Virus record (IMG/VR): IMGVR_UViG_3300042554_001021
Location: 1-31,818 of that record
Strand: one strand, 5' to 3'
From: a virus
Length of the DNA: 31,818 nt
The first letter of the stretch is position 1. Each line of letters opens with the position of its first letter. The notes below the pieces were generated by a model that saw nothing but the letters and a program-made list of their open reading frames with translations, had not been told where the DNA came from and made no database searches. Positions 4,462 to 16,805 of this stretch are shown here, in pieces. The position numbers and the translations under genes are program-made.

Positions 4462-4481
4462 AGCGACTCCTTTCAGGCGAT

Positions 4482-4521: not shown

Positions 4522-4531
4522 CACTCGTGAT

Positions 4532-4553: not shown

Positions 4554-4565
4554 CGTCGTGGAGAT

Positions 4566-5051: not shown

Positions 5052-5055
5052 TCAA

Positions 5056-5832
5056 CTACCCTGCTTTCTGTACTGAAGAAACTGAAACTTTCTCAACACC
5101 GCTGTCACTCTTTGGAAACCACTTCGCATACTCAGACCATGAAAACCCGATCTCTGCTGGCATGCCTTCAAGTCGGTTCTTTGCGAGACAGGCCGCTGAT
5201 TCCTGAGTCCTCAGGTATCGCTCTGAATTGCCGACCGCAATCCCGCGTTCTTTGTTGAAACCGAGGTCTTCTTTTCGGACAAAGACCCGATACGATGCGA
5301 AAAGCACTTCATCGCACCATTCCTGGAGCATCGCTGAGGCGCTGTCATGCAGTGCCGGCTGATACCGGTCGTAGGAATCAGTTTCCGGATCGCTATGTTT
5401 TTTGATGGCACAGTGAGCCAGCAGAATGACGCCGATTGACTTCTCCTTCCGCAGCCAGTCGAGCTTAAATGTGATCTCATCCCAATACTTCAGCGCGGAT
5501 TTGTACCCGTTGCCGAAGCCGATATCGGCAAAGTCTTTTCCGGCCTTTTTTGCGACTTCAGCGTGAATCAGCCCTTCCAGCCAGTCCGCCGAATCGATGG
5601 CGATGTGCTGGTACTTGTGCTTATCGTTGGCAAGCCAGATCAACGCTTCATTAACTAAATCCAGTGACTGCAGGTGCTCCGTTCGTTCGCAGTCAATGTC
5701 GTCGAGCCCATCTTCCAGATTCAACAACAGGCAATTCGGAGCCTGTGCCGCCCACGTGCTTTTCCCGATGCCATGAACGCCGTACAACAGCGTCCGTCTC
5801 GGTTTGGTTTTCTTTCCACTAACAATCTTCAC
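5056..5832 (-). CDS. Sak4-like / RecA-type recombination ATPase (AAA_24)
   Basis: A 258-aa P-loop ATPase. Walker A is GVHGIGKST at residues 18-26; Walker B is HIAIDSADW with Asp80; KSIGVILLAHCAIKK later in the chain resembles the sensor strand of RecA-fold proteins. The pattern is that of the AAA_24 family, whose phage members (Sak4) are single-strand annealing or strand-exchange ATPases. Its start overlaps the end of the RusA gene (ATGA) and it is followed at once by the DUF669 gene, the usual neighbour. Expected role: phage homologous recombination and replication-fork repair in the cytoplasm. Confidence 0.87.
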   Translation of the reverse strand: MKIVSGKKTKPRRTLLYGVHGIGKSTWAAQAPNCLLLNLEDGLDDIDCERTEHLQSLDLVNEALIWLANDKHKYQHIAIDSADWLEGLIHAEVAKKAGKDFADIGFGNGYKSALKYWDEITFKLDWLRKEKSIGVILLAHCAIKKHSDPETDSYDRYQPALHDSASAMLQEWCDEVLFASYRVFVRKEDLGFNKERGIAVGNSERYLRTQESAACLAKNRLEGMPAEIGFSWSEYAKWFPKSDSGVEKVSVSSVQKAG

Positions 5833-6266
5833 GATTCCATCTCCTCAAAACGGTAAACAAAAATCTCAACACCACTCTCATCACCACCACCTGCAATTCG
5901 CTTTTCGATACTTCCTGAGCAAACTTGACAGTCATCGTGCCAAAAGATTCCTGTCAGTGCGTCAAGGACTGCTTTATCGAGGTTGTCTCGGTCTGGTTTT
6001 TTGACGTGCCAGATCGACGGCATTGGGCGCGTTTTCCATGTGATTGACTTTGGACGTGGAAACACAAATTCGAGATCAACTCGGAACGGTCCTTCCATCC
6101 GCAGTCCAGAAAACTGCTGACGTGCAGCAAACTGAATTGACCGCTTCCACTTCACAACGCCATTGTTTGGTGTGTAATGTCGGCCGCTTGCCGTCGATCG
6201 TGTTCGCGGCTGAGCAATCGGAAGCCCTGGCACAAAAAATCGCCATTCCTGAATCAGATCAATCAC
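5829..6266 (-). CDS. rusA: RusA-family Holliday junction resolvase
   Basis: A 145-aa endonuclease that resolves four-way DNA junctions before packaging. It carries the RusA signature KPDRDNLDKAVLDAL near residues 90-104, with Asp92 and Asp94, and the later HDD at 110-112: the acidic residues that bind magnesium in RusA. The start is GTG at 6264-6266, overlapping the TGA of csrA as GTGA, so the two are translationally coupled. It lies upstream of the Sak4-like ATPase, an expected functional pairing. Confidence 0.92.
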   Translation of the reverse strand: MIDLIQEWRFFVPGLPIAQPRTRSTASGRHYTPNNGVVKWKRSIQFAARQQFSGLRMEGPFRVDLEFVFPRPKSITWKTRPMPSIWHVKKPDRDNLDKAVLDALTGIFWHDDCQVCSGSIEKRIAGGGDESGVEIFVYRFEEMES

Positions 6267-6430
6267 CGCTCTCCCTCCCGGTAATCCCTGATCTCAGACC
6301 GCAGGACCGTCGTTTCCTTTGGAGCGTCAACGCCGATCTTTATCTTGTCGCCCTTGATTTCCAGCACATGAATCAGGATGTCGCCATCAATCCTGATTCC
6401 TTCACCCTCTCGACGAGTCAAAACAAGCAT
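6263..6430 (-). CDS. csrA: CsrA/RsmA translational regulator, phage-encoded (55 aa)
   Basis: A complete CsrA homologue easily missed for its size. It begins MLVLTRREGEG, has the core KIKIGVDAPK and ends in RSEIRDYREGER, matching the family along its whole length. The RNA-binding elements are present: Leu4-Thr5-Arg6 in the first strand and Arg44 in the last. CsrA dimers bind GGA motifs in mRNA leaders and change translation or stability. AAAGGAG lies seven bases before the ATG. The gene overlaps the end of the 94-aa gene before it by 29 bases and the GTG of rusA after it. It may regulate phage early mRNAs or reprogramme the host Csr network. Confidence 0.95.
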   Translation of the reverse strand: MLVLTRREGEGIRIDGDILIHVLEIKGDKIKIGVDAPKETTVLRSEIRDYREGER

Positions 6431-6686
6431 TGCAACTCCTTTCGCTGATCACTCGCAGAAATCGAAAGCTCACAGATTCGCTCACTGCAATCTGCCCACG
6501 TCTTCGCAGAATCGACACCGCTGAAGCAGTGACCTGCGTTCCGTCCTCGAAACGCCAGGATAAAACACGCCCCCACAGCGGATCACAGATCCGGCCGTCT
6601 TGATACAGTGACTGACGACACTGCTGACCAGCTCGCAAACGGTTCAGAACTTCGTCTGCGGTGAGTCCTTTCACGTTTGCGGACAT
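6402..6686 (-). CDS. hypothetical early phage protein, 94 aa
   Basis: First gene of the early operon. The start at 6686 is chosen because AAAGGA lies six bases upstream; an in-frame start 20 codons earlier lacks a ribosome binding site. The N-terminal part (VKGLTADEVLNRLRAGQQ) looks helical and DNA-binding-like; the middle (GRVLSWRFEDGTQVTASAVSIL) looks like beta strands; the C-terminus is Arg/Ser/Cys rich where it overlaps csrA. I do not recognise a family. It follows a 220-base structured leader. Confidence 0.65.
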   Translation of the reverse strand: MSANVKGLTADEVLNRLRAGQQCRQSLYQDGRICDPLWGRVLSWRFEDGTQVTASAVSILRRRGQIAVSESVSFRFLRVISERSCNACFDSSRG

Positions 6687-6906
6687 TGATTTCCTTTCAA
6701 GATTCAAAAACCAGAGGCAGTGGTGTTGACTCCGCACGAATCGCACACTGCTCTCCGGTCGTACCCTGAAACAATCAGGGTCTGCCGGTTACGGCGGCAG
6801 GTTTCATTGTTCGAGTCGTGGCTACCTATCCATGGCATTTAAGAGCGTCTTACGGCTCACCACGATTCCGCTGCCGGGAATCGAACCAGGCGCAGACCAT
6901 CAGCGG
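6687..6906 (-). promoter_or_regulatory. structured leader of the early operon
   Basis: A gene-free stretch between a terminator and the first early gene. On the minus-strand RNA it holds a 7-bp dyad (CGATTCC / GGAATCG, 6864-6884), a 6-bp long-range stem (TCGTGG / CCACGA), a hairpin CTGCCG/CGGCAG (6782-6800) and a hairpin ACCCTGA/TCAGGGT (6763-6781). Several GGA triplets, including the one in the ribosome binding site of the 94-aa gene, are possible CsrA targets, which would allow feedback by the csrA two genes downstream. No convincing promoter was found here; regulation is inference. Confidence 0.45.
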
Positions 6907-6974
6907 AAAAAAACACTGGAAGCGGTCAATCAGAATCTGCGACCCTGATCCCCTAACGCAGACCGCCTCCAGTG
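6907..6974 (-). terminator. intrinsic terminator of the small two-gene unit
   Basis: On the minus strand CACTGGAGGCGGTC pairs with GACCGCTTCCAGTG (13 of 14 pairs) and is followed by seven T. The loop is unusually long (33 bases) and contains a further 6-bp stem (TCTGCG / CGCAGA on the plus strand). It ends transcription from the promoter at 7239-7267. Confidence 0.72.
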
Positions 6975-6989
6975 CGGAGCGTTTCGGGT

Positions 6990-7088
6990 TTAGTCGCGGT
7001 CGTTGCGTCTGAGGTTTTCTTCGGTGATCACCCAGCAGACGATGCCACCGAGCACAGCAAAGAAGATTGCAGCAAGCTCACTGATCAC
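6990..7088 (-). CDS. small single-span membrane protein, 32 aa
   Basis: GTG start at 7086-7088, with GAGGT five bases upstream, overlapping the TGA of the preceding zinc-ribbon gene as GTGA. The product has one hydrophobic segment (LAAIFFAVLGGIVCWVI) and a charged tail (EENLRRNDRD), so it is predicted to sit in the inner membrane with the polar tail in the cytoplasm. Function unknown; small single-span phage proteins can be lysis modulators or exclusion factors. The alternative longer frame starting at 7220 lacks a ribosome binding site in phase and conflicts with the overlapping gene. Confidence 0.55.
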   Translation of the reverse strand: MISELAAIFFAVLGGIVCWVITEENLRRNDRD

Positions 7089-7216
7089 TTTGCACCTCTG
7101 TTTCTGCAGTAGCAACCGCATTGAGAACAGACAGAGGCAGGACCAGAGGACTGTTGATTGACAGCACCGCAAGCAACGCAGCGCCATGCTGAATATAGCA
7201 TTGTTAGAAAAAACAT
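7085..7216 (-). CDS. small zinc-ribbon protein, 43 aa
   Basis: ATG at 7214-7216, preceded by AAGGGAG with a 7-base spacer and, further up, by a good promoter. The product has paired cysteines typical of a zinc ribbon (CVAC near 13-16 and CSQC near 30-33, then two more Cys). It ends at a TGA that overlaps the GTG of the membrane-protein gene. The Cys spacing and the signal at each end argue for a real gene despite the size. Function unknown. Confidence 0.6.
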   Translation of the reverse strand: MFFLTMLYSAWRCVACGAVNQQSSGPASVCSQCGCYCRNRGAK

Positions 7217-7238
7217 TCACTGTCTCCCTTCAGTAAAG

Positions 7239-7267
7239 ACAATAGCGTTCCAAGTTTTGAACGTCAA
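7239..7267 (-). promoter_or_regulatory. promoter of the two-gene small unit
   Basis: Minus strand TTGACG, 17-base spacer, TATTGT, 22 bases before the 43-aa gene. The -35 box begins directly after the stop of the XRE gene. Confidence 0.6.
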
Positions 7268-7476
7268 CGCGTAGGATTGTTTTTTTTCAAAAGTTTTGCA
7301 AGTTCGATTCCAAGAGCGTTTGCAATACGTGTCATGACTCGCTCGCTTGGCGAGTGATGCCCGTGCAAAATCCGCGACAGATAACTGCGGCGCATTCCGG
7401 CGAGATCAGCCAAAGCCTGCACTGATAGATGTTGTTTTTCGAGACGCTGGCGGAGGTTGGAGGAAAAATTATTCAT
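7264..7476 (-). CDS. XRE-family helix-turn-helix repressor
   Basis: A 70-aa Cro/CI-type regulator. The helix-turn-helix is clear: SVQALADLAGMRRSYLSRIL near residues 18-37, followed by HGHHSPSERVMTRIANALGI, the usual third to fifth helices. At this size it has no dimerisation or cleavage domain, so it is Cro-like or a short repressor. It is divergent from the plus-strand genes at 7775 and a strong dyad lies ten bases before its start, which suggests autoregulation and control of the divergent promoter, the usual layout of a phage switch. Confidence 0.9.
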   Translation of the reverse strand: MNNFSSNLRQRLEKQHLSVQALADLAGMRRSYLSRILHGHHSPSERVMTRIANALGIELAKLLKKNNPTR

Positions 7477-7510: not shown

Positions 7511-7774
7511 GATAACGTTAGAAAAATGAAACATACACCACACGCCAAAGCCGCAGAATCCTGATCATCGATTAAACAAAACGGCCAGAAATTTTACTGA
7601 GGCACGGCATGAGTAAAGCATCGGAAATACTGCGGTCGACAAACAACTTGTTTCCCGTCCTTTTGTGCAGAAAATATTTTTCTGAAAATGTGTGTAGAAT
7701 ATCTTGCAGCGGTCGATAAGGTGTGTATAATAATCACATCACGGCAACGATAATCACAAACAAGGAAACGAAAA
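7511..7774. other. divergent control region without genes
   Basis: Between the operator dyad and the first plus-strand gene. Apart from the promoter at 7704-7731 and the ATAATCACA direct repeats I see no gene. The sequence GTTAGAA at 7518-7524 fits the integron core pattern GTTRRRY, but without a partner site it is not called. Confidence 0.5.
7704..7731 (+). promoter_or_regulatory. rightward promoter ahead of the cassette array
   Basis: TTGCAG, 16-base spacer, perfect TATAAT. It precedes the two small plus-strand genes and then the cassette array with no terminator seen between, so it could transcribe the first cassettes, the role the Pc promoter plays in integrons. Two copies of ATAATCACA (starting at 7729 and 7750) overlap and follow the -10 box and may be a regulator site. 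Confidence 0.7.
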
Positions 7775-7984
7775 ATGTCACTCGCAAAGCAAATCGAAGC
7801 AGCCCGCAAAGTCGTCAACAAGTTCAAGTTCGGAACACAAGAATGGGAATCGGCAATGCAAATCGTTCGCGACCTAGTTGCAAAGCACGATGCACAACAG
7901 CCAGCCGAAGAATTTTGCAGCATCGACAGCGGAGTTCATCCAACACGATTGGTGAACGGTCGCATAATCAAGGCGGCAAAGTAA
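7775..7984 (+). CDS. hypothetical protein, 69 aa
   Basis: First rightward gene opposite the repressor. AAGGAAAC precedes the ATG. The N-terminal half (SLAKQIEAARKVVNKFKFG and EWESAMQIVRDLVAKHD) is strongly helical and basic; the rest is short and polar. No family recognised. By position it corresponds to cro/cII-type genes in lambdoid phages, but no helix-turn-helix is evident. It overlaps the next gene by one base (TAATG), so both are co-translated. Confidence 0.68.
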   Translation: MSLAKQIEAARKVVNKFKFGTQEWESAMQIVRDLVAKHDAQQPAEEFCSIDSGVHPTRLVNGRIIKAAK

Positions 7985-8184
7985 TGGCAAACGAACGACG
8001 CAACACGACACAGCCCACCGACTGGTGGGCAGCGTGGGAGGAAGCGGCGAAATCCGCTGGATTGGATTTGGCGGCGTGGATCGGCAAGCAGTGCAACAAG
8101 GCATTGCCAAAAGAGGTCCGCGACACGTTGAGCGAACGCGCTACCCGTGGCCGTCCGCGAAACGTGGAAGAACCAGATGACTAG
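7984..8184 (+). CDS. hypothetical small protein with AT-hook-like GRPR, 66 aa
   Basis: Starts in the TAATG overlap with the preceding gene. The product is rich in Trp and Ala (TDWWAAWEEAAKSAG) and then has LAAWIGKQCNKALPKEV, helical, followed by ATRGRPRNVEE: GRPR resembles an AT-hook minor-groove motif. Possibly DNA-binding; this is a guess. It ends four bases before the first attC site and so could be either a resident phage gene or a cassette whose 5' boundary has been lost. Confidence 0.68.
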   Translation: MANERRNTTQPTDWWAAWEEAAKSAGLDLAAWIGKQCNKALPKEVRDTLSERATRGRPRNVEEPDD

Positions 8185-8188
8185 GTAC

Positions 8189-8279
8189 GCATAACGCCCG
8201 GCGTTAACCGGACCGCGAGCGGTTGACGCTGATTCTGAAAACGCCTGATTCGCGGTTCCGGTTCAACGCTTTGTTATCT
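8189..8279 (+). repeat. attC1 recombination site
   Basis: Left core GCATAAC, right core GTTATCT (8273-8279). Arms GCGTT-AACCGG-ACCGCGA and TCGCGGT-T-CCGGTT-C-AACGC pair with the two unpaired right-arm bases (T, then six bases on, C) typical of attC. First site of the array. Confidence 0.92.
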
Positions 8280-8289
8280 GGAGTGGTTT

Positions 8290-8532
8290 ATGTGCGATCG
8301 ATGCGGATGCGATGGAAACGAAACTCCCTGTGATGCCTGTAGTTTCATTGAAGCGAGGAGTAAAAAGTTTGCTTCATGGGACCGCAAGAATTTAGAGGAG
8401 TTGGCTGCAGAAATGTTGTCGGCTCTTTTGCGGGCTGTGGCATGGGTTGAAATAGACGAACAAACACACGGAAGGCCATTCGGAACAGGCAATGAACTGC
8501 GGGAAGTGATTGCGAAGGCGTCTTCCAGATAA
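8290..8532 (+). CDS. cassette 1: Cys-rich hypothetical protein, 80 aa
   Basis: TGGAG lies seven bases before the ATG. The N-terminus has five Cys in 15 residues (CDRCGCDGNETPCDAC), a probable zinc knuckle; the remainder is helical (LEELAAEMLSALLRAVAWVE). The stop TAA is part of the left core of attC2 (AGATAAC), whose complement GTTATCT opens the cassette, so the gene fills the cassette from edge to edge. Function unknown. Confidence 0.75.
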   Translation: MCDRCGCDGNETPCDACSFIEARSKKFASWDRKNLEELAAEMLSALLRAVAWVEIDEQTHGRPFGTGNELREVIAKASSR

Positions 8533-8629
8533 CGACCAAGATCACAGGGGCTGTATTGGACAACGCAAAGGAAAGACTTATGAAACAACCAGAAGACGTA
8601 CCAGCCTCCTGTGCATCGCCTTGTTCACC
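8527..8629 (+). repeat. attC2 recombination site, long loop with start codon
   Basis: Left core AGATAAC, right core GTTCACC (8623-8629). Arms GAT-CACAGG-GGCTG and CAGCC-T-CCTGTG-C-ATC pair with the standard two bulges. The loop (about 50 bases) contains GGAAAG and an ATG at 8580 whose frame runs through the right arm into cassette 2. Confidence 0.88.
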
Positions 8630-8825
8630 TGAGTTTCGCTTGATCAGGTACAATCCGCGACGGGCCTTGCGGGGAGCACCAGCGGCAGAAGTTGAAGTGA
8701 ATGGTGAACCGCTTTGGATGTCGCGTTCAGATGTTCGAAATAACATACGTGATTTTGGGTGGCATCCACAGCTTGCAAAAGCACTTGAAGCCTATGACTG
8801 CAATAAGCCTTACTCGTTGTACTGA
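8580..8825 (+). CDS. cassette 2: hypothetical protein started inside attC2, 81 aa
   Basis: The ATG lies in the hairpin loop of attC2 behind AAAGGAAAG, and the frame crosses the recombination point. The first 15 residues are therefore attC-encoded and the rest cassette-encoded. The cassette part (FRLIRYNPRRALRGAPAAEV, then EPLWMSRSDVRNNIRDFGWHPQL) looks like a small folded domain with a DNA-binding-like helix (SRSDVRNNIRDFG). No ATG with a binding site exists within the cassette itself before residue 50, which supports this start. Family not recognised. Confidence 0.7.
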   Translation: MKQPEDVPASCASPCSPEFRLIRYNPRRALRGAPAAEVEVNGEPLWMSRSDVRNNIRDFGWHPQLAKALEAYDCNKPYSLY

Positions 8826-8830
8826 CTTTA

Positions 8831-8920
8831 GGTGAACGACAGCATTCACCGGGTGCCGCAGCCCGGTGTAGATTTCTGAAAACGGATGGTGCGGCACTCC
8901 GGTGGAATGCTTTGTTATGC
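8831..8920 (+). repeat. attC3 recombination site
   Basis: Left core GGTGAAC is the complement of the GTTCACC that opens cassette 2. Right core GTTATGC (8914-8920). Arms GCATTC-ACCGG-GTGCCGCA and TGCGGCAC-T-CCGGT-G-GAATGC pair perfectly with two bulges. Confidence 0.94.
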
Positions 8921-9273
8921 GTGTGATCATTGCTGGTGGACGTGAGGTTGCAGGACTCAGAGCAGACAGCATGGTGCGAGCAGCGATATCAGATAGCGGG
9001 TGGAGTGGTGATATTGTTGAGGTGATCCATGGGGCTGCATCTGGGATCGATTCGGCAGCACACAGGGTGTGTGAAGGTGTTTGGCCGGTAAAGCCAGTGC
9101 CAGCGGATTGGAAAGCTTATGGACGCGCGGCAGGGCCGATTCGCAATCGAGAGATGGCCAGTATGGCTGATGCATTGATTGCTGTTTGGGACGGTAAAAG
9201 TCGAGGAACGAAGAACATGATTGAGACAGCGGAAAAGATGGGCTTGCGAGTGTATGTTCATCGCTACGCATAA
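8917..9273 (+). CDS. cassette 3: DUF2493 (YspA/SLOG-like) protein
   Basis: A 118-aa Rossmann-like protein of the DUF2493/YspA branch of the SLOG superfamily: RVIIAGGREV at the N-terminus, HGAASGID near residues 40-50, GPIRNREM near 77-84 and WDGKSRGTKNMI near 93-104. SLOG proteins bind nucleotides or nucleotide-derived ligands; DUF2493 members are common in phages and mobile elements, with roles in nucleotide signalling or DNA modification suggested. The start ATG lies inside the right core of attC3 (GTTATGC) and the stop TAA inside the left core of attC4 (GCATAAC). An in-frame ATG at 8902 in the attC arm is an alternative. Confidence 0.85.
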   Translation: MRVIIAGGREVAGLRADSMVRAAISDSGWSGDIVEVIHGAASGIDSAAHRVCEGVWPVKPVPADWKAYGRAAGPIRNREMASMADALIAVWDGKSRGTKNMIETAEKMGLRVYVHRYA

Positions 9274-9355
9274 CGACGGCATTCACCGGGTGTGCGCCGG
9301 TGACGTGATTTCTGAAGACGCTGGACGCACACTCCGGTGGAATGCTTTGTTATGC
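9268..9355 (+). repeat. attC4 recombination site
   Basis: Left core GCATAAC, right core GTTATGC (9349-9355). Arms GCATTC-ACCGG-GTGTGCG and CGCACAC-T-CCGGT-G-GAATGC pair. Nearly identical to attC12. Confidence 0.94.
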
Positions 9356-9372
9356 TGTTTTAAGGAGTGTTA

Positions 9373-9600
9373 ATGTCAAGGGTGCAGTACAAATACTGGA
9401 TGGTTCATTCGCGTGAGGGTGGACCGGCTGCAAAAACGTACGACGACTTTGGCACCGCGTTACAGGAGGCTCAACGTCTTGCGTCACAGCAACCGGGCAG
9501 GCGATTCGGCGTCATGGAACTTGTCGAATGCTGGGTAGTAGAGCAGCCAGAACCTCATTCAGTGCGAGTTGAGCACGCACCTCAAGCACAATCGGCATAA
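9373..9600 (+). CDS. cassette 4: small phage-type hypothetical protein, 75 aa
   Basis: AAGGAG lies five bases before the ATG at 9373, inside the cassette. The pattern of an aromatic N-terminus followed by YDDFGTALQEAQRLASQQPGRRFGVMELVE resembles a widespread short phage protein family (alternating F/A..EA.RLA..NPG..F.V.E), function unknown. The stop TAA is part of the left core of attC5. The tail (PHSVRVEHAPQAQSA) is low complexity. Confidence 0.75.
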   Translation: MSRVQYKYWMVHSREGGPAAKTYDDFGTALQEAQRLASQQPGRRFGVMELVECWVVEQPEPHSVRVEHAPQAQSA

Positions 9601-9686
9601 CGACCGGCGTTCACGTGGCCGGAGGAGTAAAACTATGCATTCTGAAAACGCTGAACCGACGGCTCCCGTGCAACGCCTTGTTATCC
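9595..9686 (+). repeat. attC5 recombination site, loop with RBS and ATG
   Basis: Left core GCATAAC, right core GTTATCC (9680-9686). Arms GGCGTT-CACGTG-GCCG and CGGC-T-CCCGTG-C-AACGCC pair with one mismatch. The loop carries GGAGGAGTAAAACTATG, a consensus ribosome binding site and start codon. Confidence 0.9.
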
Positions 9687-9979
9687 GCCTTCCACAGCGG
9701 TTCCAATGGAAAAACCGGATGGATGGTCCGTGGTTAAACGGAATCGTTTTTCCGGTTAGTGGCAGGGAACTGTGGCAAATTCACGCCGGCCTAGGCCACG
9801 CGACGTTTTATGCTGACCCATGGGAAGCTATGGGGATGGTGCTCGGAGACGCGGCTGGGTTCCGGTGGATCGACAATGATTACGAATGGGAACCGAAGGG
9901 CGCGATCTGTTGTGATACGATTTATGAGTCAGCGGAAGACTTTCGCGTTCATTTGTTGGTTGCTCATCAGTGCGGATAA
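9635..9979 (+). CDS. cassette 5: hypothetical protein started inside attC5, 114 aa
   Basis: GGAGGAG and the ATG at 9635 lie in the attC5 loop. The first 16 residues (MHSENAEPTAPVQRLV) are encoded by attC; the cassette adds RLPQRFQWKNRMDGPWLNGIVF onward, a Trp-rich globular protein ending with CDTIYESAEDFRVHLLVAHQ. The distance from ATG to the recombination G (45 bases) keeps the frame. The stop TAA lies in the left core of attC6 (GGATAAC), complement of the GTTATCC that opens the cassette. Function unknown. Confidence 0.75.
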   Translation: MHSENAEPTAPVQRLVIRLPQRFQWKNRMDGPWLNGIVFPVSGRELWQIHAGLGHATFYADPWEAMGMVLGDAAGFRWIDNDYEWEPKGAICCDTIYESAEDFRVHLLVAHQCG

Positions 9980-10064
9980 CGCTCAAAATCACATGGCAGC
10001 GGCCAAACAGGCCAGCCATGTGAGAAACCGTAACCCGCTGCTCATGTGCATTTTGTTGTTGTGC
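9974..10064 (+). repeat. attC6 recombination site
   Basis: Left core GGATAAC, right core GTTGTGC (10058-10064). Arms CAAAAT-CACATG-GCAGCGG and CCGCTGC-T-CATGTG-C-ATTTTG pair perfectly with two bulges. Its stem sequence differs from the other sites while keeping the same architecture. Confidence 0.94.
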
Positions 10065-10096
10065 TGCCTCTTCTGGAAAATTTCAAAAAAGAGTCG

Positions 10097-10124
10097 TTGA
10101 CGCCGTACGAATGTACGATATATT
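10097..10124 (+). promoter_or_regulatory. internal promoter of cassette 6 with operator dyads
   Basis: TTGACG, 16-base spacer, TATATT. The spacer contains the dyad CGTAC-GAAT-GTACG (10104-10117), and GATATA-TT-TATATC (10117-10130) overlaps the -10 box. These are suitable sites for the XRE regulator encoded in the same cassette. Confidence 0.72.
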
Positions 10125-10192
10125 TATATCATCAGACACGAGTTGTGTTTGGTCCGCCTTGACGGGTTTCGAGCCAAGTGAAAGACAGAACA

Positions 10193-10450
10193 ATGACACG
10201 CTACGCGACAATTCGAAATATTGAAGCTGTAAAGCACAACGGATATTTGAGCTTATCGATCCTCAGTAAATCCGCAAATGTGCGGTACACACTGGAGCGA
10301 GACCAAGACAATGATGGCGTCGAATTCACCACTGCTACGCTGAATGCTGAGGACTTGTTAGCCTTGTACGAAATGGATGAGGTATCAATCGGGCGAACGG
10401 AAAAAGACGAGTTTGAATTGTACCTGTGTCAAGTAGCAGAACGGAATTGA
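10193..10450 (+). CDS. cassette 6: hypothetical protein, 85 aa
   Basis: First gene of the large cassette. Start ATG at 10193 chosen; GTG at 10178 is in frame and possible, since neither has a strong binding site. The product looks like a small beta-rich protein (YLSLSILSKSANVRYTLERD, then LLALYEMDEVSIGRTEKDEFELYLCQ). No family recognised. It precedes the methyltransferase by three bases, so the two are one transcription unit. It could be a partner of the methyltransferase or an unrelated passenger. Confidence 0.62.
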   Translation: MTRYATIRNIEAVKHNGYLSLSILSKSANVRYTLERDQDNDGVEFTTATLNAEDLLALYEMDEVSIGRTEKDEFELYLCQVAERN

Positions 10451-10453
10451 TAC

Positions 10454-11143
10454 ATGATTCAAACGCGAATTCCTGTTGAGCCATTTTATGATCAGGATGG
10501 CATCACGATATACAACGCTGACTGCCGAAAGTTGCTTCCGTGGCTAGAAATAGACCGCGTTGTCACTGATCCGCCATACGGCATATCGTTTGCCGGAAAG
10601 CGTCAAGGCACAGATCCTGTGAACGAAACTCCATATGATCAGTATCTAGATTCTGTGGAAAACTTTGCAAAAATAGTTGTTCCTGTGATCGCGCTCAGTT
10701 GCCAAATCGCAAAGACTGTGGCTACGTTTTGCCCAGTGCGACATATCGGCATGATGCCAGTGCCAAGCGATGCTGGAGGAATTTGGCAGGAAAACGGAAA
10801 GGGTTTGTCACCTTTTGGATTTACCAGTTTGCATGCAGTGCTGTACTACGGAGAAGATCCAAAACGGCAGGGACGTGTCGGAGGATCGTGGCCGACAGGT
10901 TTTCGGCATGATGGAAAAGCGACTGTCTGCAAGCAACATCCTTGCAGCAAGCCAGTAGAGTGGATGCGATGGCTGATCAATAGGCTATCAAACGAAGGCG
11001 ACGTTATAGCCGATCTATTTATGGGCGCAGGTACAACGCTACTTGCGGCAAAGCTGGAGGGTCGCAAAGCGATAGGAATTGAGATCAGCAAACCATATTG
11101 CAAAGCGGCAGTTGATAGGCTGAAACAGAAAACGCTATGGTAG
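10454..11143 (+). CDS. cassette 6: N6-adenine DNA methyltransferase
   Basis: A 229-aa AdoMet-dependent DNA amino-methyltransferase. Motif IV is DPPY (39-42, in VVTDPPYG), the N6-adenine type; motif I, FMGAGT (189-194, in IADLFMGAGTTLLAAKLEG), follows it, giving the beta order. The target-recognition region between them is short. No restriction endonuclease gene is adjacent, so it is probably an orphan modification enzyme that protects phage DNA or alters gene expression. It differs from the methyltransferase at 778-1776 in class and sequence. It overlaps the XRE gene by seven bases. Confidence 0.9.
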   Translation: MIQTRIPVEPFYDQDGITIYNADCRKLLPWLEIDRVVTDPPYGISFAGKRQGTDPVNETPYDQYLDSVENFAKIVVPVIALSCQIAKTVATFCPVRHIGMMPVPSDAGGIWQENGKGLSPFGFTSLHAVLYYGEDPKRQGRVGGSWPTGFRHDGKATVCKQHPCSKPVEWMRWLINRLSNEGDVIADLFMGAGTTLLAAKLEGRKAIGIEISKPYCKAAVDRLKQKTLW

Positions 11144-11364
11144 ACCACCTTCAGTCAGTCATCGCAGCCCGAGCGGAATCGCTCGGGCTGTCTTCTTACG
11201 AAATCGCAAAGCGATGCGACGGAAGCCCAAACAGCGAGGCTGTCAGTCGGTACATTCGCGGCAGATGTTCGCTCGGTTCGGCTTACGTATCGAAGATTTG
11301 CGACGTGCTCGGGTTAGAGCTTTGCGCAAAGAAGAAGGGCAGGAAGCCCGATCCATCGAAGTAA
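11137..11364 (+). CDS. cassette 6: XRE-type regulator, 75 aa
   Basis: A helix-turn-helix protein (SSYEIAKRCDGSPNSEAVSRYIRG near residues 19-42, then LGSAYVSKICDVLGL), ending in a basic tail (KKKGRKPDPSK). Its size and its position behind a methyltransferase recall the controller (C) proteins of restriction-modification systems. Likely binds the dyads in the cassette promoter at 10104-10130 (inference). The start ATG overlaps the methyltransferase stop, so it is translated after it. Confidence 0.85.
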   Translation: MVDHLQSVIAARAESLGLSSYEIAKRCDGSPNSEAVSRYIRGRCSLGSAYVSKICDVLGLELCAKKKGRKPDPSK

Positions 11365-11394
11365 GACAGGTAGGCAGGACGCCGTGATCTGTCA

Positions 11395-11484
11395 GCACAA
11401 CGCCGCACTTCACCGGGTGGCAGCCGGTGGATTTTCCATACTTTTCGACTGGGTCTGCCACTCCGGTGAAAGTGCTTGTTATGC
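11395..11484 (+). repeat. attC7 recombination site
   Basis: Left core GCACAAC is the complement of the unusual GTTGTGC that opens cassette 6, so the whole 1.4 kb (10059-11478) is one cassette. Right core GTTATGC (11478-11484). Arms GCACTT-CACCGG-GTGGCAG and CTGCCAC-T-CCGGTG-A-AAGTGC pair. Close relative of attC11. Confidence 0.94.
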
Positions 11485-11774
11485 GGTTTATCGTCACTGT
11501 GCTCAATACTCTGGATGAGATCGATATCGACGGTTTCACGGAGGATGTTCTTGAGGAAGCCAGAGAACTCGAAGAACACTTCACGATTCAGACAGATCAC
11601 AGGTTAATAGCAGGAGATCATTTGACGTTTTATGGCAGCGACGGAAACACGCTGTATGCCTTCGAAGTGGTGCAAGTGCAGTTGTCTGGCGATTTGGTGC
11701 GCAAGAAAGAGGACTTGGAACTTCGCCTGAATGGAGATCACGAACTGCGTGTGAAGTGGGTTTCAATTCGTTGA
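11481..11774 (+). CDS. cassette 7: hypothetical acidic protein, 97 aa
   Basis: ATG lies inside the right core of attC7; a GTG at 11427 in the attC loop is in frame and would add 18 residues. The protein (RFIVTVLNTLDEIDIDGFTEDVLEEARELEEHF, then SGDLVRKKEDLELRLNGDHELRVKWVSI) is acidic and beta/alpha mixed. Its TGA stop lies five bases before the left core of attC8. Family not recognised. Confidence 0.68.
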   Translation: MRFIVTVLNTLDEIDIDGFTEDVLEEARELEEHFTIQTDHRLIAGDHLTFYGSDGNTLYAFEVVQVQLSGDLVRKKEDLELRLNGDHELRVKWVSIR

Positions 11775-11778
11775 GTCC

Positions 11779-11867
11779 GCATAACGCCCGGCGATAACCG
11801 GGCGGGGAGTAAAACATGGAAAAACAAAAGCAGGCTGATACCGCTCCGGTTGATCGCCTTGTTATGC
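11779..11867 (+). repeat. attC8 recombination site, loop with RBS and ATG
   Basis: Left core GCATAAC, right core GTTATGC (11861-11867). Arms GGCGAT-AACCGG-GCGG and CCGC-T-CCGGTT-G-ATCGCC pair perfectly with two bulges. The loop carries GGGGAGTAAAACATG, very like the attC5 loop. Confidence 0.94.
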
Positions 11868-12121
11868 CGCATGTTCACGTGCCAGCCCATGACTCTGGCG
11901 TCACATGGTGTCAAAAGTGCGGGACATTTGACCGTCACTTCTCAAGTGCGGCATGTCGGCAGATAGTTGTCGTGTTCGACCACGGTGATGCGTACGTTTA
12001 CGGACCCGGATCAGACGGGCGGATAGATTATTCGGAACCACGTGACTGGCCCTGCTGGTGGCCCAGTCGCATTACGAGCGATTTCTGTGATAAATATATG
12101 ATTCCGTGGGTGTTGGCATAA
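11816..12121 (+). CDS. cassette 8: hypothetical protein started inside attC8, 101 aa
   Basis: GGGGAG and ATG lie in the attC8 loop; the first 16 residues (MEKQKQADTAPVDRLV) come from attC, then the frame passes an ATG in the right core (11864) that could start the cassette-only form. The cassette part has WCQKCGTFDRHF, a zinc-knuckle-like pair of Cys, and a Trp-rich end (PRDWPCWWPSR). The stop TAA lies in the left core of attC9. Function unknown. The two in-frame starts would give 101- and 85-aa forms. Confidence 0.72.
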   Translation: MEKQKQADTAPVDRLVMPHVHVPAHDSGVTWCQKCGTFDRHFSSAACRQIVVVFDHGDAYVYGPGSDGRIDYSEPRDWPCWWPSRITSDFCDKYMIPWVLA

Positions 12122-12220
12122 CGACAGGCATCACCGGTGCCGACGAAAGACGAGGTATAGAAATGACTGAAGGAACTGAAAATGCGGGTGCATCGGCTCC
12201 GGTGCATGCCTTTGTTCACA
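12116..12220 (+). repeat. attC9 recombination site, loop with ATG
   Basis: Left core GCATAAC, right core GTTCACA (12214-12220). Arms GGCAT-CACCGG-TGCCGA and TCGGC-T-CCGGTG-C-ATGCC pair. The loop holds GAGG and an ATG at 12163. Confidence 0.92.
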
Positions 12221-12549
12221 CGCCCGGTCCGTGGGTGGTGGATTATGAGGGTTCGATCGGACACGTGAAAAGCGTGGCTGAGAGACCAGATTATTTCACG
12301 CCAACAGTGGCGAGATACGACACAGGGGCTGTGTCGATTGGGCCTGACGAGAAACAGGCGAACGCACGGCTGATTGCTGCCGCTCCGGATCTCCTTGAAG
12401 CGTGCAAAGCTGCGCTGGCAGCGATTCGTTCCGCGTGTCAGGACGGATCGATCATCTGGCTGGATCCGCCATATGTTCTGCCCGGTGTGCATGAGTCAGC
12501 AGCAGAACGTCTGCAAAATGTGATTGAGCAGGCTGAGTCAGTCGTGTGA
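12163..12549 (+). CDS. cassette 9: Ead/Ea22-like phage protein started inside attC9
   Basis: ATG in the attC9 loop behind GAGG; 51 bases to the recombination G keep the frame, so residues 1-18 are attC-encoded. The remainder is a very common phage type: TPGPWVVDYEGSIG at the N-terminus and KQANARLIAAAPDLLEACKAAL, the signature repeated in Ead/Ea22-like phage accessory proteins. Their biochemical role is not established. The stop lies in the left core TGTGAAC of attC10, complement of GTTCACA at the cassette start. Confidence 0.8.
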   Translation: MTEGTENAGASAPVHAFVHTPGPWVVDYEGSIGHVKSVAERPDYFTPTVARYDTGAVSIGPDEKQANARLIAAAPDLLEACKAALAAIRSACQDGSIIWLDPPYVLPGVHESAAERLQNVIEQAESVV

Positions 12550-12636
12550 ACGACAGCCATAACCGGGCGGCAAGGTGTCCGGTGTCACTTTAGGATGCGG
12601 CGTCGTTGCCGCTCCGTGTTCATGGCTTTGTTATCT
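12545..12636 (+). repeat. attC10 recombination site
   Basis: Left core TGTGAAC, right core GTTATCT (12630-12636). Outer arm AGCCAT/ATGGCT and inner arm GCGGCAA/TTGCCGC pair perfectly around the T bulge; the middle box is one base longer on the right (CCGTGTT). Confidence 0.88.
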
Positions 12637-12646
12637 GGAGTTTAGT

Positions 12647-12925
12647 ATGGCGTTCGATATTCCACGGGAAGAACCGCAGTACGAAGACGAGTTGGAAGAT
12701 AAATTTCGTGAGTGTATGCAGAACAGCGTGCCCGCTCGCCGTGGCTACGATGCCGCGAAGTCGTTTGGACTGGATGAGGAATCACGATTGAAGGCGGCAA
12801 TCATTCAGTTGACCGAGATGAACAAGCGAGCAATGGCCATCATCACGGATGCGATCATGCACGGGATGCCGATCACGCCAGAAGTTGCTGATGTCAGAAA
12901 TCAGATTGTTGGTTCTTCCAGATAA
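12647..12925 (+). CDS. cassette 10: hypothetical helical protein, 92 aa
   Basis: TGGAG precedes the ATG. The product is acidic then helical (REEPQYEDELEDKFRECMQ, ESRLKAAIIQLTEMNKRAMAIITDAIMHG). No family recognised. The stop TAA is in the left core AGATAAC of attC11, complement of the GTTATCT that opens the cassette. Confidence 0.72.
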   Translation: MAFDIPREEPQYEDELEDKFRECMQNSVPARRGYDAAKSFGLDEESRLKAAIIQLTEMNKRAMAIITDAIMHGMPITPEVADVRNQIVGSSR

Positions 12926-13009
12926 CGCTGCACTTCACCGGGTGGCAGACGGTGGAGTTTCCATTCTTTTCGGCGGGGTCTGCCACTCCGGTGGAAGTGC
13001 TTGTTATGC
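12920..13009 (+). repeat. attC11 recombination site
   Basis: Left core AGATAAC, right core GTTATGC (13003-13009). Arms GCACTT-CACCGG-GTGGCAGAC and GTCTGCCAC-T-CCGGTG-G-AAGTGC pair. Close relative of attC7. Confidence 0.94.
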
Positions 13010-13269
13010 CGCAATATTTGTCGGTCACGATTGTGCGTGAGCAGTTTCAGGAAATCGGCGTAGTGGTTCCTGATGACCTGTCGATTGATCAGGCGAAAGT
13101 TTTCATTCGCAAGCATATCGAAGAAATCGCTGAAGATCTGTGCTACGAGACAGACTGGATGGAGGATTCAATTCAGGCAGAACGCATCATGCCTGTCAGT
13201 CAGGATGTGGCCACCGGCCTTGGACTTCTCACATGGGATGAACTTTCAGAGTGTAATCGGTCGGCATAA
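13006..13269 (+). CDS. cassette 11: hypothetical protein, 87 aa
   Basis: The ATG lies in the right core of attC11 and the TAA in the left core of attC12, so the reading frame fills the cassette. The frame is also open back to a GTG at 12952 in the attC loop. The product (YLSVTIVREQFQEIGVVVPDD, then SIDQAKVFIRKHIEEIAEDLCYETDW) is mixed alpha/beta and acidic. Family not recognised. Confidence 0.7.
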   Translation: MPQYLSVTIVREQFQEIGVVVPDDLSIDQAKVFIRKHIEEIAEDLCYETDWMEDSIQAERIMPVSQDVATGLGLLTWDELSECNRSA

Positions 13270-13352
13270 CGACAGTATTCACCGGGTGTGCGCCGGTGAC
13301 GTGATTTCTGAAATCGCTGGATCGCACACTCCGGTGCAATGCTTTGTTATGC
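13264..13352 (+). repeat. attC12 recombination site
   Basis: Left core GCATAAC, right core GTTATGC (13346-13352). Arms GTATT-CACCGG-GTGTGCG and CGCACAC-T-CCGGTG-C-AATGC pair (one G-U type wobble). Nearly identical to attC4. Confidence 0.93.
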
Positions 13353-13373
13353 CTTTTTTTTCGGAGGGGAATT

Positions 13374-13568
13374 ATGTTGCCACATCAACAGCGAGTCGTT
13401 GACGAAAAGATTGATTTAGACGCGAAAATCGAAAAACTGATGACGTTCCTGACAACGTCTGTTTTCGATGGGTTGGACAACGGGGAAAAATCGAGGTTAC
13501 GCATTCAGTTGGATGCGATGGGGACATATAGCACAGTTTTGGGTGAACGAATCGCTCATTTCGGATAA
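13374..13568 (+). CDS. cassette 12: crAss001_48-like small phage protein, 64 aa
   Basis: GGAGGGG lies five to six bases before the ATG. The sequence (HQQRVVDEKIDLDAKIEKLMTFL, then LDAMGTYSTVLGERIAHF) matches the recurrent small helical phage protein known as crAss001_48-related, found in many unrelated phages; function unknown. The cassette ends with an isolated core GCATAAC at 13570-13576, complement of the opening GTTATGC, but no complete attC follows. Confidence 0.78.
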   Translation: MLPHQQRVVDEKIDLDAKIEKLMTFLTTSVFDGLDNGEKSRLRIQLDAMGTYSTVLGERIAHFG

Positions 13569-13569
13569 G

Positions 13570-13576
13570 GCATAAC
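13570..13576 (+). repeat. terminal attC left core, site incomplete
   Basis: GCATAAC matches the right core that opens cassette 12. Beyond it CTTTGAA pairs with TTCAAAG (7 bp), but the two-bulge stem and right core are missing, so the last attC is degenerate or truncated at the array end. Confidence 0.55.
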
Positions 13577-13649
13577 TTTGAATTATCCGTCGCGTGTTGT
13601 TTTCAAAGTATCACTTTGCGCGTGATATCCCGATATCGCTTCCCCAAAA

Positions 13650-13726: not shown

Positions 13727-13975
13727 CTATGACGGTCCGGTGCTTTCGAAATGCTCACAAGCTTGACAATCGGCTTCTGTGACGTCCGTTTTGAGCAGTC
13801 TGCAAATATGTAGTTGATCGCAGCATCGACGGCGTGAGCCGCGATGTGTGCATACACTCGTTTTTATTTCTTCACGCAACACACATGCCTCACAGGTTTC
13901 TTGGAGCACGAACAGCATGAACTGTGCCGCAGATTGATGCTGGCAAATAGTGCCAGATAAAAACCTGCACGTCAC
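13727..13975 (-). CDS. Cys-rich small protein at the end of the late operon, 82 aa
   Basis: GTG start at 13973-13975 overlaps the TGA of the preceding gene as GTGA, the same coupling seen at csrA-rusA. The product is Cys rich (CEACVLREEIKTSVCTHRG, then RRRCCDQLHICRLL and DCQACEHFE), with C-HRG and C-x2-C patterns of a metal-binding protein. A longer frame starting at 14011 overlaps the previous gene and has no binding site. Reality is likely but not certain. Confidence 0.55.
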   Translation of the reverse strand: MTCRFLSGTICQHQSAAQFMLFVLQETCEACVLREEIKTSVCTHRGSRRRCCDQLHICRLLKTDVTEADCQACEHFESTGPS

Positions 13976-14922
13976 AGATAATTCAGTGCGATCGTCATCG
14001 TCGATGGACATGTAATGCCTAGAAATGTGTCACGTCGTGGATTGTATGCTGTCGGCTCATGAGTCAATACGATACCACTGCCGTCAAAGTCGTTTGAACA
14101 ATCAACTTCTTTACGATATATGGCAAAGCCACCTCCTGACGGCATTGAAAACGCTCCTCCACCAGGTGGCTTAAAATCAATGCATGCATAAGGAATATCC
14201 GGATATCCAGGCAGTCCAAAACCTGCAGTGTCGGCTGGATCTGTTTCAGAAATACTCCACCAACTACGATTTGTAATTGCTGCCGTAACGAACGTCACGA
14301 ACGCATCCGCTCGCCAATATTTGACTGCCGAAATAGTTTCGATATAGACTCTTATAGCGGTAAAAATAATCTCGGTGCGGCACGTCCATCGTTGCGTGCT
14401 GCCAGTCATCACCAGTGTAGTACATCTGGAATCACTGATCGTCGTTATTACTCGATTCCATGGATCTGACGCGTTCACGGCATTGACTGGCTCGTAAAGC
14501 GTACCAACTTCAAGCTCTGAGTTAACCTGTACTGCCGGGAAATTTTTTGACGCGACACTGTGATACACTGCCGGAATTGCTGTGCAGTCATTCCATAGCC
14601 ACTGGCACGGGTATACATTTACTGTTGTTCCGGTTTGATTTGAACCAAAGCCGTTCGTGATCGTGGCCGCTGGTGCTTGCCACAGTTCCAAGGTTGTTGG
14701 TATGCCGTTCGGTGATTTGAAATATTGCGTTGCTGACCAAGTGATATCTCCCAGAGGCGCGGTGTACACTCCATTGCACGCATTAGTGTCACCATCACTG
14801 TAAGCAAACCCGCTAAAACCACCGTGCGTGACAGTGATTTTTGACCAATCGATTCGGAAACGTTTGTTTGCACATCCAAAGCATGGGTAAGGATCACCGC
14901 AACAGCAAAGACTCATAAACAT
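13972..14922 (-). CDS. tail tip/fibre-like structural protein, 316 aa
   Basis: Late gene. The start ATG forms a TAATG overlap with the previous gene (an ATG at 14916 is also possible). The N-terminus is Cys rich (SLCCCGDPYPCFGCANKRF); the rest is Ser/Thr/Gly and aromatic rich (TVTHGGFSGFAYSDGDTNAC) with a glycine-rich segment near the end (PPGGGAFSMPSGGGFAIY), as in beta-rich adhesins. No family recognised. Position after the tape measure supports a tail-tip, baseplate or receptor-binding role. Confidence 0.7.
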   Translation of the reverse strand: MFMSLCCCGDPYPCFGCANKRFRIDWSKITVTHGGFSGFAYSDGDTNACNGVYTAPLGDITWSATQYFKSPNGIPTTLELWQAPAATITNGFGSNQTGTTVNVYPCQWLWNDCTAIPAVYHSVASKNFPAVQVNSELEVGTLYEPVNAVNASDPWNRVITTISDSRCTTLVMTGSTQRWTCRTEIIFTAIRVYIETISAVKYWRADAFVTFVTAAITNRSWWSISETDPADTAGFGLPGYPDIPYACIDFKPPGGGAFSMPSGGGFAIYRKEVDCSNDFDGSGIVLTHEPTAYNPRRDTFLGITCPSTMTIALNYL

Positions 14923-15296
14923 TATCGAGCCCCCATCGGGCCGCAATCACCCACAAACCACCAGTGCCCGTCAATCCATTCGGCTTTACCAAACGTGTCG
15001 GCTTCGTATGATTGGCTTTCGCTGTGATTCCAGACGGTGATCTGGTCTGTTGTCTCGGTGTATTCCTCGTCCACATCGAACCACGCGAGACGCGTTGCAA
15101 GGCATGATGTCGCGCCGGTTTTGGAATCAGTGGCGACGTCTAGGGCTTCGTCGAGAATGACAGTGATTGGCGGCTGCGTGCCCATTGGTCGCGGACCACG
15201 TGACGTGATGCCAACGTTTGGCGTCGCCTGCCTGCGAAGATAATCTTGCCACAGCAGGCGACCTTGTTCAACAGAGAACGCAGCGAAGTCTGTCAT
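14922..15296 (-). CDS. hypothetical late protein, 124 aa
   Basis: Acidic, Trp-rich small protein (EQGRLLWQDYLRRQAT, DEALDVATDSKTGATSCLATRLAWFDVDEEYTETT, IDGHWWFVGDCGP). It overlaps its neighbours by one base on each side, so it is part of the late operon. The DVATDSKTGATSC region could contact capsid or tail proteins, but no family is recognised. Confidence 0.68.
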   Translation of the reverse strand: MTDFAAFSVEQGRLLWQDYLRRQATPNVGITSRGPRPMGTQPPITVILDEALDVATDSKTGATSCLATRLAWFDVDEEYTETTDQITVWNHSESQSYEADTFGKAEWIDGHWWFVGDCGPMGAR

Positions 15297-15940
15297 CAGC
15301 CTTTAATGTCCATTACGAAATCAATGTTCGCGATCGTCGGAGTTACGGCAGTCACCGTCGCCGCGTCAGTGCAGGCAATCGCAATTCGAACGTCAAGAAT
15401 GTCACCTTTTACCAGTGACGTCGCAGTAATCGTAAACGTTTTGTCAGCAAACGTCAGGCTATTAATTGATTGTGCCGCAGTGGCACACAGATCAGCGCTG
15501 ATGCCGCTGGTTTTGTCGTGTCGATAACATTCGACATCGACCGTACAGGACGTGTCGGCAATTGTCGTTTTCATTCCAGCCGACAAAACAATCGTAAACG
15601 TTTCCGCGTCGTCGTAGCATTCAGGGACGACGAATGAAAAGCGAGCGTAGCGAGTCGTTGCACCAGCCGCCTTCAGATCGCCTGCCTGCACCATCGGTGG
15701 AGCCGTGCCGAACGTGCCGCCAATCAAGGCCAGATCGTCGGTTGCTGCCGTTCCAGGTAGATTGGTGTGGTACGCGTCCCACACTCGCAGAGAGGTTAAA
15801 TTGACTGGAAATTTCTGGTTTGTATCCTGAACCAGAATTGTCGAGCGTGTCTGTGCTGACACACCATTTGATGGAACGGAAAGCGATCCCCGCAGTGTAA
15901 TATTTTCCGAGACGATCAGTGTATCGGTGGTCGATGGCAT
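15296..15940 (-). CDS. hypothetical late structural protein, 214 aa
   Basis: A Thr/Ala/Asp-rich protein (ENITLRGSLSVPSNGVSAQT, TFGTAPPMVQAGDLKAAG, KTFTITATSLVKGDILDVRIAI), with many short beta strands and few charges, typical of tail-associated decoration or fibre proteins. Ten bases separate it from the next upstream gene. No family recognised. Confidence 0.68.
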   Translation of the reverse strand: MPSTTDTLIVSENITLRGSLSVPSNGVSAQTRSTILVQDTNQKFPVNLTSLRVWDAYHTNLPGTAATDDLALIGGTFGTAPPMVQAGDLKAAGATTRYARFSFVVPECYDDAETFTIVLSAGMKTTIADTSCTVDVECYRHDKTSGISADLCATAAQSINSLTFADKTFTITATSLVKGDILDVRIAIACTDAATVTAVTPTIANIDFVMDIKG

Positions 15941-15950
15941 TTTATATCCC

Positions 15951-16805
15951 TCAGACTAACCCTAGTGCGGCATATGGAAGCGAGCCATAAACCTGAGTGT
16001 ATTTGTAAACAGCGTTATCCGGATTGGTTTCTAACGTGCCGTCAGTTTTCAACAGCACAGGTTTTGCGACCTCAACTTTCTGGGAATCTGTGGCACGTTT
16101 TACGATCGACCCTTCCTTGACGTAAAAACCTTCGTGTCGCCATCGCTTGTGCCACGCTTGAGCGTCAGTGGCTCCAGCAAGTCCCTTGCGAAACTGAATT
16201 CGAGCCGTTACGTCCCAACCTTCGTTTACCCCTCCATAGGTGAAAGAGTTCTTAGCACTAAAACCGATCAGACGTGCAGTGCCGGGAGCCCAACCGAGAA
16301 ACGTATCGGAGTTCGTAGCGTGTCGATATTCTGCAATTGCAAACGTGTTAATCGATGAAAACCGCCGTCTAATCACGCACATCTGGTCAGCGAGGTCCAT
16401 CGTTAGACCCTCGACCTTTTCGCCATTTGCCGTGACGATCGCTCGTCCGTTGTAGTCTCGATCGATTGCTTCTGCTGCCGCTGTGTCACCCCATTCCACC
16501 TCGACAGATTCCGCCTCGTAATCTGGTGACTGAACGCCTTCATAGCCTACGGTCACTACCCAGAGTGTAGGACCGAGTGCATTGACGGTGTAGTTTTTTG
16601 CGTAGCTGTAAGCCCCGCTTGGATGCTGTTCACCGAGTGCGGGAATCCCGACCGCAGAGACTGCGACTGTCGCATCGTCGCCGATTTCGCAGAGCACCTG
16701 CCACGCTTCTGTGAATTGATACTTTGCGGAAAACGGTGAAAAGTTTTCAGACGAAAACTGTCCGCCGCGTTTTGACCACATTTGAGTGACGTCGATTACG
16801 CTCAT
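15951..16805 (-). CDS. hypothetical tail-associated protein, 284 aa
   Basis: Follows the tape measure gene with an ATGA overlap. Sequence such as KYQFTEAWQVLCEIGDDATV, VEVEWGDTAAAEAIDRDYNG and RHATNSDTFLGWAPGTARLI is beta rich. By position it may be a distal tail or tail-tip protein. No family recognised. Confidence 0.68.
   Translation of the reverse strand: MSVIDVTQMWSKRGGQFSSENFSPFSAKYQFTEAWQVLCEIGDDATVAVSAVGIPALGEQHPSGAYSYAKNYTVNALGPTLWVVTVGYEGVQSPDYEAESVEVEWGDTAAAEAIDRDYNGRAIVTANGEKVEGLTMDLADQMCVIRRRFSSINTFAIAEYRHATNSDTFLGWAPGTARLIGFSAKNSFTYGGVNEGWDVTARIQFRKGLAGATDAQAWHKRWRHEGFYVKEGSIVKRATDSQKVEVAKPVLLKTDGTLETNPDNAVYKYTQVYGSLPYAALGLV

Follow-up and report, generated by a model that had tools for sequence, protein, structure and literature searches.

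A probable integron platform with inverted gene cassettes in a lineage of tailed phages

Integrons are known as platforms by which bacteria capture genes, and phages with attC sites have been seen as carriers of bacterial cassettes. The contig IMGVR_UViG_3300042554_001021 of the IMG/VR database (31,818 nt, positions 1-31,818 of the record; "the window" denotes this whole stretch) holds a row of attC-like sites and small cassettes among the genes of a tailed phage, and raises the question of what such an array is doing there: which unit is mobile, in which direction its genes are read, and which enzyme moves it. We consider it likely that the locus is a phage-borne integron platform with a fixed attI-like site and 13 mobile cassettes, whose genes are inverted and which the integrase of the host serves in trans. 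What we take from the sequences are the structure and covariation of the attC sites, the modularity of the cassettes, their turnover between phages, the positions of the junctions, the similarity to attI and the inverted polarity. The phage sequences are all metagenomic assemblies, as are nearly all of the host sequences, and in several cases the contig breaks off within the array or close to it.

Sites and cassettes of the array

The original prediction proposed an integron-type array inside a phage genome, and this claim has held on the strength of covariation, of model matches and of the phage genes on the same contig. All 12 sites lie where it had placed them, between 8189 and 13352, each 88-105 nt long, with a left core NNNNAAC and a right core GTTNNNN. 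Folded as the minus strand, most of them adopt the attC architecture, i.e. paired outer cores, an unpaired spacer, a stem and a variable loop; the stem carries two unpaired bases on one arm, with six bases between them. Across the window sites, 11 pairs of the inner helix have changed on both sides, and the whole structure yields 44 cells with two-sided changes, compared with a mean of 16.7 in shuffled data and with 5-8 after shifting the partner by 1-3 columns.

A covariance model, whose E-values are rough, was built from the 12 sites of the window and then run on the window, on other phages and on chromosomes. The window sites score 60-85 bits each, compared with 12 bits for the best match outside the array, although these scores measure internal consistency only, because the same sites are the training set; the opposite strand of five of them scores 14-22 bits. 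The check by an attC model that had been proposed nevertheless came out in favor of the prediction, as the home-made model also detects arrays in other phages and in planctomycete chromosomes. It found no attC in two relatives (G006 and G012) and only isolated low-scoring matches in five (G011, G013, G023, G034 and G035). In a more distant phage, G017 (L116, 8500-12500), weak attC-like sites occur in small number, and the spacer AACAACAATTACCCCAAATAACAACCGCATCGGCGGC is repeated between small genes; this phage was excluded from the counts.

The cassettes are delimited as expected from the original prediction: each of the 12 cassettes c1-c12 of the window opens with the reverse complement of its closing core, whereas within a linear site the left and right cores match in just three of the 12 attC sites. 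Over eight arrays the cassette cores match in 58 of 61 cases, compared with a mean of 13.6 and a maximum of 27 in 20,000 within-array permutations; the relatives used for this and for the polarity counts below were found partly with the home-made model. The array of G003 (L107) has two core mismatches, in its c6 and c8, where the opening core of c6 (GTTCGCT) pairs with the closing core of c8 (AGCGAAC), as though other cassettes had entered an existing one.

The predicted extent of the array stood in part. Its 12 cassettes were recovered, but the stretch 7648-8195 in front of them (c0) is 97% identical to the c1 of another phage contig, L131, with the homology starting at the core, and there it has attC on either side. 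Because c0 recurs as an attC-flanked cassette, we place the start of the array at about 7648 rather than 8189, so that it spans 7648-13576 and comprises 13 cassettes, as follows (scores are those of the home-made model; SD-like, Shine-Dalgarno-like; ORF, open reading frame).

7648-8195, plus strand: cassette c0, promoter-like region and small genes 7775-7984 and 7984-8184; opens GTTTCCC, closes GCATAAC
8189-8279, minus strand: attC1, 82 bits
8273-8533, plus strand: cassette c1, ORF 8290-8532; cores GTTATCT/AGATAAC
8527-8629, minus strand: attC2, 60 bits; SD-like sequence and ATG (8580) opening the c2 frame
8623-8837, plus strand: cassette c2; cores GTTCACC/GGTGAAC
8831-8920, minus strand: attC3, 79 bits
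8914-9274, plus strand: cassette c3, weak DprA/SLOG-like match; possible ATG in the core (8917)
9268-9355, minus strand: attC4, 82 bits
9349-9601, plus strand: cassette c4, 98.8% identical to G005 c5
9595-9686, minus strand: attC5, 84 bits; SD-like sequence and ATG (9635)
9680-9980, plus strand: cassette c5, 99.3% identical to G007 c5
9974-10064, minus strand: attC6, 70 bits
10058-11401, plus strand: cassette c6, three ORFs; 99.7% identical to L131 c4
10454-11143: c6 ORF, N6/N4 DNA methyltransferase
11137-11364: c6 ORF, small protein with a weak HTH_3 match below the curated cut-off
11395-11484, minus strand: attC7, 79 bits
11478-11785, plus strand: cassette c7
11779-11867, minus strand: attC8, 73 bits; SD-like sequence and ATG (11816)
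11861-12122, plus strand: cassette c8
12116-12220, minus strand: attC9, 64 bits; SD-like sequence and ATG (12163)
12214-12551, plus strand: cassette c9; a 99.7% identical copy joins the attI-like site directly in L131 and L132
12545-12636, minus strand: attC10, 61 bits
12630-12926, plus strand: cassette c10
12920-13009, minus strand: attC11, 76 bits
13003-13270, plus strand: cassette c11
13264-13352, minus strand: attC12, 85 bits
13346-13576, plus strand: cassette c12 (last), crAss001_48-like protein; opens GTTATGC, closes GCATAAC right at the attI-like site
13574-13587, minus strand: attI-like site, GATAATTCAAAG/TT; conserved phage backbone then to about 13747

Relatives were gathered by the large terminase and by the terminal site, and further arrays by recombinase and attC-pattern searches. 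At this locus the related IMG/VR phages have arrays of differing content, with up to 12 attC each, and in those aligned to the window the array adjoins the tail genes at the same position, as the original prediction would lead one to expect. Relative to the window, the backbones of G003, G005 and G007 show about 68-80% identity, yet some of the cassettes shared between phages reach 98.8-100% (c4 with G005, c5 with G007, c6 and c9 with L131); moreover, c8 of G001 equals c4 of G007. As the order and the neighbors of the cassettes differ between phages, we conclude that cassettes turn over, and this suggests that the phages use the gene-swapping machinery of integrons on genes of their own. The proteins encoded are short and have few family matches (three DNA methyltransferases, one crAss001_48-like protein, one DUF7736 and one weak SLOG-like match).

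Polarity of the cassettes and the terminal site

Four lines of evidence, namely the terminal site, the natural junctions, the travel of attC with the ORF and the polarity of the ORFs, indicate that, compared with chromosomal integrons, the phage arrays are turned around. The asymmetry of attC, the position of attI and the two natural junctions put the recombination point at the left core.

In the phages with a located end, the core of the last cassette is followed by TTTGAATTATC and, where aligned, by the backbone; the last cassettes differ between phages, though the terminal site and the backbone are conserved. The reverse complement of TTTGAATTATC contains TAATTCAAAG/TT, which is identical over 12 nt to the site between intI and the first cassette in the integron of one planctomycete metagenome-assembled genome (MAG), an integron whose first cassette has matching cores; of the window site, TAATTCAAAGTT is identical to the planctomycete attI. 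By this sequence criterion one end of the window array is an attI, and it lies at the 3' end of the genes of the array. The terminal GCATAAC (13570) was also considered as the remnant of a broken thirteenth attC, and this was rejected, as in several phages it is followed by conserved backbone and not by an attC stem. A scan with the exact pattern of the terminal site returned nine contigs, of which eight have matches to the attC model and the ninth (L085) ends inside its last cassette.

Two natural junctions place the point of exchange. Cassette c9, internal in the window, directly abuts the attI-like site in L131 and L132, and c4 of G007, internal in that phage, is terminal in G001; both junctions fall at the left core, at about RYYYAA/C (the slash marks the point). 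The attC that accompanies a shared ORF is the one upstream of it: upstream stems are 84-100% identical in six of seven between-phage pairs, and downstream stems 55-71% identical in the five pairs that have one, against a background with a median of 65% and a 95th percentile of 82% (Wilcoxon test of upstream versus downstream stems in the five pairs, a small sample, p = 0.03). Finally, among the callable cassettes, 35 of 39 from phages have their ORF opposite to the strand of the attC model and 50 of 54 from chromosomes have it on that strand (Fisher p = 1e-16); the same model served for both sets. The chromosomal cassettes come mostly from planctomycete MAGs, with a few belonging to other phyla, and short cassettes often allow no clear ORF call. 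Wherever a host locus has both intI and attC (ten loci), the attC polarity runs away from intI. Thus, the integron rule that genes read away from attI with attC at their 3' end is reversed in 35 of 39 phage cassettes. The original prediction had implied the usual arrangement, with a recombinogenic bottom strand and attC at the 3' end of the gene, and this was not borne out: the unit appears to be an attC with the ORF downstream of it, and the attI-like site stands at the 3' end of the array.

Placed in front of its gene, each attC is incorporated into the 5' leader. Of the 61 cassettes, 21 have an ATG within the attC body from which a frame continues across the core into the cassette, and 14 of these also show an SD-like sequence; another 6 cassettes have their ATG in the core itself. 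Some of these attC-borne ATGs may not be real starts. The leader peptides TAPVDRLV and SCASPCSP recur in the attC loops, in frame with the next ORF (attC2, attC5, attC8, attC9 and similar sites in relatives). At the far left end, c0 has a TATAAT near 7727 that was identified by eye and was not listed by a consensus scan; that scan is barely above shuffles (7 promoters found in comparison to a shuffle mean of 5.9).

On these grounds we propose the following scenario. The 13 cassettes would enter and leave by site-specific recombination at the fixed attI-like site (13574-13587, minus strand), with the sites polarized as in planctomycete chromosomal integrons, i.e. attI first and then the cassettes leftward on the minus strand. 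The genes are reversed inside the cassettes, so that the array would be read from its far left end toward attI, and the mobile unit would consist of an attC followed by an ORF, the attC contributing the 5' leader and often an SD-like sequence and a start codon. An integron integrase, presumably that of the infected planctomycete acting in trans, would fold the gene-coding strand of attC and cut it at the left core, and would insert cassettes at attI, where the unit, read from the left, has its 3' end. They may pass between phages, and the cassette methyltransferase could serve anti-restriction. What we infer in this scenario is which enzyme acts and on which strand, by what route cassettes are exchanged, that expression comes from the left end, which host is infected, and roles such as that of the methyltransferase in anti-restriction. 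A precedent for the strand is provided by attC mutants. According to Bouvier et al. 2009 (PMC2727003), canonical sites have their unpaired bases on the L'' arm, and once these are inverted the top strand recombines instead, at the R'' box, as the phage junctions would demand.

Several observations weigh against this scenario. None of the array-bearing records searched, the window included, contains an integron integrase above the family cut-off (TIGR02249), although these records may be incomplete. No empty attI occurs among the nine contigs with the terminal site. One of the seven shared ORFs, in the most diverged pair (window c10 and G001 c3), has unlike upstream stems (63%), and 23 cassettes (14 phage, 9 chromosomal) are ambiguous in ORF direction. 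Last, the phages probably infect planctomycete bacteria, an assignment drawn from the likeness of attC and attI.

Candidate recombinases and competing explanations

With at least two attC sites and no intI nearby, the window array corresponds to a cluster of attC sites lacking integron-integrases (CALIN), and neither in the window nor in the array-bearing phages, whose records are possibly incomplete, does an intI stand next to the attI. IntI was found in 49 of 294 planctomycete genomes, and a host IntI acting in trans is the most likely enzyme. One relative, G012 (IMGVR_UViG_3300037070_001164), encodes a full integron integrase (L113, 9374-10594; TIGR02249 E = 1e-97) with IntI4 as the best PDB match (2a3v, E = 4e-48). 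Its gene lies beside a peptidase-like operon, where G005 carries its tyrosine recombinase, and a scan of IMG/VR for relatives of this IntI returned only the record of G012. Its terminase is related (82%), no attC was detected in it by the model, and its tie to the arrays is phage kinship only.

It is possible, though distinctly less likely than recruitment of the host enzyme, that these phages have a dedicated integron of their own, in which a fixed attI, a phage-only pool of inverted cassettes, attC sites serving as leader and start, and a phage-encoded tyrosine recombinase would sustain swapping independent of chromosomal cassettes. Somewhat less probable still is that the platform is as we describe it but is driven by a tyrosine recombinase of about 300 amino acids instead of the host IntI. 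This protein is encoded in 19 IMG/VR contigs (L251, 1498-2394; L252, 1492-2451; L253, 1492-2367; loci L254-L272), it has conserved R, K, R, H and Y positions, and in G007 and G039 its gene precedes the array by 100-120 nt. A structural model of it, built from 13 sequences (a three-sequence version was poor), matches lambda integrase, IntI4 and Xer proteins at E of about 1e-5 to 1e-4, but with low TM-scores, and it may be an ordinary lysogeny integrase. Moreover, the gene is 9 kb from the array in G005 and about 7 kb in L256 and L257, it is absent from the (possibly incomplete) window, and most contigs that carry it have no attC in the fetched flank.

An ordinary CALIN, in which host cassettes were caught by chance in their usual orientation and remain passive in the phage, seems improbable to us. 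The window without an integrase would fit it, phage CALINs of such kind have been published (PMC9892861), and reversed ORFs also occur in 4 of 54 chromosomal cassettes. However, it is disfavored by the junctions and by the polarity: the ORFs run opposite to those of chromosomal cassettes, the upstream attC travels with the ORF, and a common attI-like site with turnover at one locus is seen in many relatives. Besides, tblastn of the cassette proteins against the fetched host loci gave similarity of the methyltransferase only.

Slightly less credence goes to homologous recombination between similar attC stems, instead of site-specific recombination, as the means of exchange. Between stems of the lineage the identity is about 65%, with some values exceeding 82%, the upstream stems of c10 and G001 c3 are unlike, the c0 unit is shared with L131 only from the core on, and G003 has its two mismatched core pairs. 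On the other hand, homologous exchange alone would not be expected to leave matching cores in 58 of 61 cassettes, nor exact core joins to an attI-like site that has no attC stem.

That a bacterial integron array was joined to a phage contig by misassembly is very improbable despite the metagenomic origin of the contigs, several of which end inside or near the array, because the array, the attI-like site and the related backbone are contiguous at the same position in contigs from several metagenomes, as the original prediction had required of a genuine junction, and the same attC series occurs in L131 and L132, which come from different samples.

Known systems and other features of the contig

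Qi et al. 2023 (PMC9892861) described 17 CALINs in phages, including phage methyltransferase cassettes; five of six phage attC sites tested recombined with IntI1, and the cassettes of TJE1 and PH101 were called typically oriented. The arrays described here resemble those CALINs in being attC clusters without an integrase gene in phage genomes and in their DNA methyltransferase cassettes, but differ in having up to 12 attC, a common attI-like site, turnover across relatives and inverted genes. The opinion that cassette arrays in phages are hardly described therefore needs qualification: phage CALINs are in print, whereas in the papers searched (most subscription journals and all preprints were outside the coverage) we found no report of inverted cassettes with attI at the 3' end or of cassette turnover in a phage lineage.

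With planctomycete chromosomal integrons the phage arrays share the attC model, the attC polarity away from attI and, for one MAG, the 12-nt attI identity. In the chromosomal integrons, however, the ORFs point away from attI with attC downstream (50:4) and intI stands beside attI, whereas the phage cassettes run toward attI (35:4) and lack intI. The phage arrays resemble mutants of the Vibrio cholerae repeats (VCR) and of other attC sites with inverted extrahelical bases (PMC2727003), in that the unpaired bases are on the other arm relative to the gene and the recombination point is at R''; those, however, are laboratory mutations, and the phage case is natural and kept across a lineage. Reversed genes with unchanged site polarity offer a natural test of whether the asymmetry of attC orients cassettes for expression, and the direction rule becomes testable with natural sites. 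If our interpretation is right, a lineage of phages appears to have put the platform to work for small genes of its own, which would give it site-specific, modular shuffling of accessory genes.

The tailed-phage gene set of the contig includes terminase, portal, a capsid/protease fusion, a tail protein, helicase and a Sak4-like protein, arranged as follows.

2-7476, minus strand: early phage genes (helicases, Sak4-like protein, DNA methyltransferase, XRE-type regulator)
13972-31767, minus strand: late phage genes (tail, capsid/protease fusion, portal, terminase)

A scan of the window against Rfam at the gathering threshold gave no matches. The tail-end protein (13972-14946), which adjoins the attI-like site, looks highly variable between relatives, because a pattern search of IMG/VR led to only one other, near-identical contig. 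The N6/N4 DNA methyltransferase gene of cassette c6 (10454-11143) is not the only one in the window; a different one lies in the early module (778-1776).

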